Program-made: the position numbers and the translations under genes
NCBI GenBank assembly: GCA_012517825.1
Contig: JAAYUG010000185.1
Location: 1 to 44,879 of the forward strand
Direction of reading: 5' to 3'
DNA from: Bacteroidales bacterium
Lineage (GTDB): Bacteria > Bacteroidota > Bacteroidia > Bacteroidales > JAAYUG01
Length of the DNA stretch: 44,879 bases
Shown: piece after piece, positions 275-44,423 of the stretch
How positions within the stretch are numbered: the first letter of the stretch is position 1
Layout: each line of letters begins with the position of its first letter
The notes under the pieces: model-generated
Database searches by the model: none
The model's input: only the letters and a program-made list of their open reading frames with translations
Told to the model about the DNA's origin: nothing

Positions 275-690
275 GCCCGGATTGCGCATCAGGAGCGAAA
301 GCGAACTGATGCGCAGTGGGTTTGCCTTGTGCGAAAGCATCCGGGCAAATCCCGCTGAAACGAAGTGAAAGCGGCCCAACGGGCACATTGCGAATGCTCT
401 CATGAGCAATGCGGATTAAGCCCGGATTGCACATCAGGAGTGTAAGCGAACTGATGCGCAGTGCGCAGGCCTTGCGCGAAAGCATCCGGGCAAATCCCGC
501 TGAAACGAAGTGAAAGCGGCCCAACGGGCACATTGCGAATGCTCTCATGAGCAATGCGGATTAAGCCCGGATTGCGCATCAGGAGTGTAAGCGAACTGAT
601 GCGCAGTGCGCAGGCCTTGCGCGAAAGCATCCGGGCAAATCCCGCTGAAACGAAGTGGAAGCGGCCCTTGCGGCAACTGGCGCATTTTTA
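275..690. repeat. Array of 145-base palindromic repeat units
   Basis: Three head-to-tail units start at 275, 420 and 565, each opening with GCCCGGATTGC. Units 1 and 2 are 145 bases long and nearly identical. Unit 3 diverges after about position 667. Each unit has two halves. Half A (275-346 in unit 1) is a nested palindrome: outer arms GCCCGGAT (275-282) and ATCCGGGC (339-346), inner arms GCGCATCAG (284-292) and CTGATGCGC (306-314). Half B holds weaker stems, among them CCGCT/AGCGG and TGCTC/GAGCA. Short open frames cross the array in several phases, but their repeated translations look like by-products. Truncated copies lie elsewhere in the window. The array looks like a REP/BIME-type or small non-autonomous element; its family is not recognised. 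Confidence 0.9.
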
Positions 691-28708: not shown

Positions 28709-28740
28709 CCCGGATTGCACATCAGGAGTGCAAGCGAACT
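28709..28740 (+). repeat. Truncated copy of the 145-base repeat
   Basis: CCCGGATTGCACATCAGGAG followed by TGCAAGCGAACT matches the first 32 bases of a repeat unit, then stops abruptly at the point where the inner right arm should begin. It lies in the 299-base gap between divergent genes; the rest of that gap holds the two promoters and nothing else recognised. Confidence 0.8.
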
Positions 28741-28948
28741 AAAAAAATCTTTCTGATCCGGTTCTTCCTTTTTTTCATCGCAATGTGTTGTATTTCTTTG
28801 TGTTATATTTTTAAAGCATTGCCGGCACAAAAAAAAATTTCACCATGCTGTGCGAGATTTTCCCTTTTCGGGTATAAATCATAAAAAGACCGATGATGGA
28901 TCGGGCTGGAATTTTTACTTTCGTTGCTGAATTCCAAACAAAAAAAGT

Positions 28949-35111: not shown

Positions 35112-35178
35112 CGGATTATGGATCAGGAGCGAAGCGAACTAATGCGTATTGCATATGCCTTGCCCGCCGGCATCCGGC
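35112..35178 (+). repeat. Diverged half-A copy of the palindromic repeat
   Basis: The bases carry CGGAT at the left and ATCCGG at the right, with GATCAGGAGCGAAGCGAACT between, as in half A of the 275-690 array, but the inner arm pairing is degraded. It is followed by the GAF-sensor gene on the opposite strand after 34 bases. Confidence 0.75.
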
Positions 35179-35212
35179 TTTACCCCTCCGCGACGCAATG
35201 AGAACCGCCGTT

Positions 35213-40708: not shown

Positions 40709-40738
40709 CAAATATACAAAAATCCGTATGGCAGCAAA
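40709..40738 (-). promoter_or_regulatory. Promoter for the downstream phosphofructokinase
   Basis: On the minus strand TATATTTG (40709-40716) is an exact -7 box, with TTTG 18 bases upstream (40735-40738), slightly short of the usual spacing. The ATG follows 60 bases on. Confidence 0.55.
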
Positions 40739-40767
40739 ACCCCATCCATTCAGGGTATAAAACATTA

Positions 40768-40805
40768 AGGGTGAAGTACTGCAACATCTTCAGCTTCTTC
40801 ACCCT
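40768..40805 (-). terminator. Terminator-like hairpin between the two phosphofructokinase genes
   Basis: AGGGTGAAG (40768-40776) and CTTCACCCT (40797-40805) form a perfect 9-bp stem with a 20-base loop, 29 bases past the stop of the upstream minus-strand gene. The bases after it on that strand are T-rich but not a clean run. It would separate the two genes. Confidence 0.5.
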
Positions 40806-40834
40806 CCGGTAGTATGTGCATCATCCTTCTTTGC

Positions 40835-44322: not shown

Positions 44323-44354
44323 GAAAATTCAGGAATCTGGTTTCAGCTGGTTTT

Positions 44355-44423
44355 GCCCGGATGCCGGCATGCAAAGGCAACGCTCTGCGCATTAATTCGC
44401 TTGCTCTCCTGATGCACAATACG
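44355..44423 (-). repeat. Inverted half-A copy of the palindromic repeat
   Basis: Read on the minus strand, GTGCATCAGGAG, CAAGCGAATTAATGCGCAG and GCCGGCATCCGGGC appear in the order of half A in the left-end array. It is the only clearly inverted copy in the window. Confidence 0.8.

Follow-up and report, generated by a model that had tools for sequence, protein, structure and literature searches.

We analyzed a 44,879-nucleotide (nt) window (positions 1 to 44,879 of contig JAAYUG010000185.1, forward strand) from a Bacteroidales bacterium with a draft genome of 3.3 Mb in 207 contigs (GCA_012517825.1; the host genome, G000), together with a congener (G001) and further genomes of the same class, likewise designated by G numbers. 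Near its start, the window carries a tandem array of a short repeated element. A repeat search placed three head-to-tail copies of 145 nt each at 274–418, 419–563 and 564–708, spaced by 145 and 145 nt and spanning 274–708. Units 2 and 3 are 94% and 77% identical to unit 1, and the first ~104 nt of unit 3 are preserved while its tail is decayed; the exact 145-base period with two full units and a partial one, described in an earlier sequence-only reading, was thus recovered. Comparison with relatives set the boundaries and places the start of the element body at CCCGG (276). On the plus strand, the body of unit 1 (left end CCCGGATTGCGCATCAG, right end ..GCAATGCGGA) occupies 276–415 and that of unit 2, also retrieved by nhmmer, 421–560. 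Unit 3 (566–708; 131.6 bits) has its first two hairpins intact and a decayed right end. The joints between units 1 and 2 (416–420) and between units 2 and 3 (561–565) read TTAAG, a target-like 5-mer, and an element and a 5-bp target together make up the 145-nt period. A minus-strand open reading frame (ORF) of 114 amino acids covers the array. As 145 is 1 modulo 3, each unit is read in another frame than the one before it, and this ORF shifts frame from unit to unit; it is therefore no conserved protein, in line with the sequence-only reading, which had seen no convincing protein in the array. Just upstream of unit 1, positions 251–271 (TCGGCCCAAGCGCAATG) look by eye like a possible decayed remnant of another unit.

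The element body folds as three hairpins. In unit 1, H1 (275–346, plus strand, as are the others) has an outer stem at 275–282/339–346 and an inner stem at 283–292/306–315, supported by covarying stems and by folding; of the nested arms described earlier, the 8-bp outer pair stands, but the inner arms measure 10 bp and not 9. Covariation also defines H2 (352–374), in which CCGCT (352–356) pairs with AGCGG (370–374) and the loop at 361–365 is C-GNA-G, and H3 (385–413), the outer side of which is the right terminal inverted repeat. Folded as RNA, unit 1 reaches −67.3 kcal/mol against −46.8 kcal/mol for dinucleotide shuffles (z = −5.5); folded as DNA, it gives z = −4.7. Across 28 full units, 89.8% of cells are paired in the assigned structure and two-sided changes occur at 13 pairs, counts reached by 0 of 500 shuffles; the structure was drawn from the tested sequences, which biases the fraction paired and makes the two-sided changes the stronger evidence. 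With host and congener combined (30 sequences), compensatory changes appear at 21 of 37 pairs, in 132 cells against 47 when shuffled, and sliding the partners abolishes the signal. The H2 loop is C-GNA-G (GAA, GCA or GGA) in most host copies, and the H2 stem of the congener is built from different pairs.

The sequence-only reading depended on further copies beyond the window, and BLAST matched the unit at 51 places in the host genome. A covariance model detected 56 copies there and 32 diverged ones in the congener, and nhmmer yielded 76 usable units in 40 stretches of the host. A unit consists of a ~103-nt head and a ~40-nt tail; single copies mostly have both, and in arrays many units are tail-less, with a period of 106–108 nt. 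Arrays frequently lie at contig ends, as expected of repeats that break assemblies. Units of one array share 90.7% identity, units of different arrays 84.3% and single copies 74.7%, so the arrays are younger. Beyond these two genomes, a second covariance model gave weak copies in G068 and G002 and a single clear one, at 95.7 bits, in G064, a genome from a different family of the same order. An exact search for the core pattern matched GTDB contigs only in the congener JAKPTE01 and had no match in viral contigs.

Target duplications and empty sites indicate that these copies moved. In the congener, 10 of 19 copies have, after the right end, an exact repeat of the five bases that precede CCC, whereas shuffled flanks gave a mean of 1.4 matches and a maximum of 8 in 100,000; flank identity occurs only at the exact register. 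The duplications are of the TTNAW type (TTTAT, TTTAA, TTAAT, TTAAA, ATAAT, TTCAA and TTGAA). G209 (TTTAT), G299 (TTAAA), G309 (TTTAA) and G064 (TTAAA) also have short elements that share these ends and carry identical 5-bp flanks. Orthologous host and congener sites, compared for part of the copies at about 75–90% nucleotide identity, include a precise empty site: the congener reads ACCTGCG-ATAAA-TCATTTG where the host has array L040/L025. Further empty sites were seen in the congener for L027 and L035/L050, and in the host for the congener copy L097. The congener lacks the window array, and its element L099 is absent from the window at 40712–40830. The terminal inverted repeats are imperfect and ~17 bp long; comparing the left end with the reverse-complemented right end gives 4.8 in the host and 7.2 in the congener, against 1.8 when shuffled. 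Each feature tested for a miniature inverted-repeat transposable element (MITE) was therefore found, namely a short, non-coding, multicopy element with target duplication, terminal inverted repeats and an empty orthologous site. One stretch of the host genome, L184 (G000:C30:15000–18200), is 98.5% identical to the congener over 3.2 kb, compared with about 75–90% in the other orthologous regions compared, and is either a contaminant contig in the metagenome-assembled genome or a recent transfer.

The ends point to a family of insertion sequences (ISs). Of 395 class genomes, 27 contain the terminus pattern CCCRRATTAHGCATTAG, which stands in inverted orientation at the two ends of the element, with no more than 35 matches per genome; a reversed control pattern had no match in the class genomes listed. 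In G295, two inverted CCCRRATTAHGCATTAG termini enclose a complete IS of 1402 bp with a 448-amino-acid protein, which NCBIfam identifies as an IS1380 family transposase at 255.9 bits (cut-off, 180 bits). G212 has a 1285-bp IS with the same termini and one stop codon in its IS1380-family transposase gene, and single termini adjoin IS1380 genes in G309, G353 and G514. Of 14 other genomes searched, 11 have IS1380 genes or fragments, only 4 above the cut-off. Over 17 positions, the left end of the congener element agrees with the G212 IS end at 16 and that of the host element with the G295 IS end at 14; as a background, 3 of 1334 CCC-starting 17-mers of the window reach 14 matches, and these 3 may include the elements themselves. 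The IS1380 partner was detected only through the CCCRRATTAHGCATTAG pattern across the class. The IS1380 family (transposase NF033539/PF13701) includes ISEcp1. Published work lists IS1247, a captured IS1380-family element, with 5-bp direct repeats and mentions IS1380-family transposable modules with adjacent DNA (PMC3281130); the family also serves as an outgroup to piggyBac (PMC10813416). Among the papers searched that mention both IS1380 and MITEs, judged in part by title and abstract, none was found to describe an IS1380-derived MITE.

Dispersed copies, 5-bp TTNAW duplications, empty sites, matching inverted ends and a conserved three-hairpin body together make it very probable that the array consists of copies of a non-autonomous mobile element of ~140 bp, a MITE bearing ends of the IS1380 type. 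The common ends and the duplication length suggest mobilization by an IS1380 transposase. A DDE transposase of this family, acting in trans, would cut at the CCC ends and insert the element into TTNAW sites, and each insertion would leave the element flanked by new TTNAW sites. A second insertion beside the first would then give head-to-tail units at the element length plus 5 bp, that is, 145, after which arrays may expand and homogenize by recombination. The joint of each array repeats its own left-flank trinucleotide (TTA, TTT or TTC).

Several observations weigh against this reading or are not accounted for by it. A Pfam search of the draft assemblies of the host, the congener and G002 gave no IS1380 transposase, so that in the host the family is probably stranded at present, unless its IS dropped out during assembly. 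End-pattern scans of 1.19 Mb of the congener gave no autonomous copy. The two IS copies with both ends have unequal 5-bp flanks (TTTAT/ATAAA and ATAAA/TTTAT), and target duplication is not clean in the host arrays. Eleven of these arrays begin with TTAAG, whereas the readable orthologous targets in the congener are ATAAA or TTGAA, so simple target duplication does not account for the left 5-mer. In addition, many internal array units have no right end, which the insertion model does not explain. IS1380 enzymes such as ISEcp1 use alternative ends; such use is a possible lead to both the TTAAG starts and the tail-less units. Finally, a DDE transposase requires only the element ends, so the conserved internal hairpins are left unexplained.

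The hairpins invite other readings, and here the mobile non-coding element of the sequence-only reading held up better than its suggestions of a REP/BIME-like element (repetitive extragenic palindrome/bacterial interspersed mosaic element) or a structured RNA. Palindromes mobilized by a REP-associated tyrosine transposase (RAYT, a Y1 HUH transposase), like the atypical structures flanking Bacteroidetes subclass 2.6 RAYTs, would accord with the one RAYT-like gene in the host, and the element resembles REP/BIME in being intergenic, palindromic, present in high copy number and sometimes clustered. However, REP elements accompany a RAYT and are not known to make a target duplication, and the 5-bp duplications seen here are unexpected of HUH enzymes. 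Of the features of REP/BIME (no target duplication, a GTAG-type foot and a dedicated HUH transposase), none was found for the array element. The only Y1_Tnp gene of the host is not flanked by repeats of the array family but surrounded by unrelated in-frame ones, and it resembles subclass 2.4 (YIRNNP). With IS1380 elements bearing the ends of the family, we consider a RAYT origin very improbable. The RAYT-like gene itself (NHVH, YIRNNP; L009, G000:C51:1–2336) lies in frame within a long DNA-methyltransferase-like ORF, with in-frame repeats on either side (GTIQSRDALG five times, TSIPAGE-type), an arrangement reminiscent of the in-frame REP insertions seen with subclass 2.4 RAYTs (PMC6006769). 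Integron cassettes without genes, with attC-like sites, deserve almost no credence: head-to-tail units with hairpins and a joint GGTTAAGC fitting GTTRRRY recall them, but other joints read GATTAAGC, GGTTTAAC and GGTTCAAC, the joint triplet varies, the RYYYAAC box is not conserved, and single dispersed copies have 5-bp duplications. On anatomy, attC sites, a group II intron and a retron were all rejected.

A transcribed structured RNA or 3′-untranslated-region element, selected as RNA and only secondarily spread by transposition, would account for the strong covariation in most helices and for the retention of three hairpins in other families despite different sequence. The gene upstream of the element also has the same orientation in 27 of 36 cases (p = 0.004, from crude gene calls). 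Yet over the four main stems G-T mispairs (18) do not exceed A-C mispairs (27), similar counts that single out the RNA of neither strand, and the unit has no match in Rfam. The apical loop of copy L048 is inverted, and hairpin-templated repair may therefore contribute to the covariation. This RNA reading seems improbable to us. Somewhat less doubtful, though still unlikely, is that selection keeps the three-hairpin fold across the class and that a folded single strand, of replicating DNA or of RNA, serves mobility or array growth. If this were true, the element would be a structured cargo riding on DDE-transposase ends.

The same three-hairpin fold is found in a second congener family (L148, L124 and L139) and in the G209 and G299 elements, which by eye also have a GGGTTAWCCC link or close variants in common; this layout in sequence-distinct families is no more than a lead as regards common descent. 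The second congener element (CCCAAATTATTCATTGGGAG...AATAATTGGG) is sequence-distinct and lies at ~7133 in L124, ~6543 in L139 and ~19220 in L148, where ATTAT stands on either side. An end-pattern match beside a transposase-like gene in a broken copy of this second family was read as a later insertion. Elsewhere in the window, nhmmer detected a degenerate left-end fragment of the array family at 28709–28741 (plus strand), a degenerate copy at 35112–35208 (plus strand) and another at 44338–44423 (minus strand), which is fused to a different, repeated right half. This last head and those of L024, L037, L049 and L060 run into the same right half (..AAATTCCTGAATTTTCACCGC..ACACCTCAGGTGTTG..), apparently a different palindromic repeat family. 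In the congener, a palindrome-rich 330-bp tandem repeat (L099:3090–5036; 5.9 copies, 92%) is fused to the right part of the element; the fusion recurs in L102, L106, L128 and L162, with fragments in L024, L029 and L038 of the host, and L128 is a ~760-bp composite bearing both element ends.

Compared with known systems, the element shares with IS1380-family ISs the CCC-starting inverted ends of the same sequence and the TTNAW-like flanks, and differs from them in its ~140-bp length, conserved internal hairpins, tandem arrays and lack of a transposase gene. The MITEs of Porphyromonas gingivalis (MITE239, MITE464/PgRS, MITE700 and BrickBuilt) are likewise Bacteroidota MITEs with ends matching an IS, in their case a resident one, but those ends match IS5-family ISPg elements (PMC4596501). 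BrickBuilt and MITE464/PgRS also contain tandem repeats, which are of 23 or 41 nt and lie inside the MITE (PMC4596501), whereas here the entire element is in tandem.

A MITE lineage with IS1380-matching ends and a covarying internal fold is unusual. It explains a class of repeats found at many contig ends of the draft host genome, and it provides CCCRRATTAHGCATTAG as a diagnostic terminus for locating the family elsewhere. The anatomy of the joints offers a concrete model for the formation of tandem arrays by such elements, and the fold raises the question of why a cut-and-paste DNA element would need a conserved single-strand structure.
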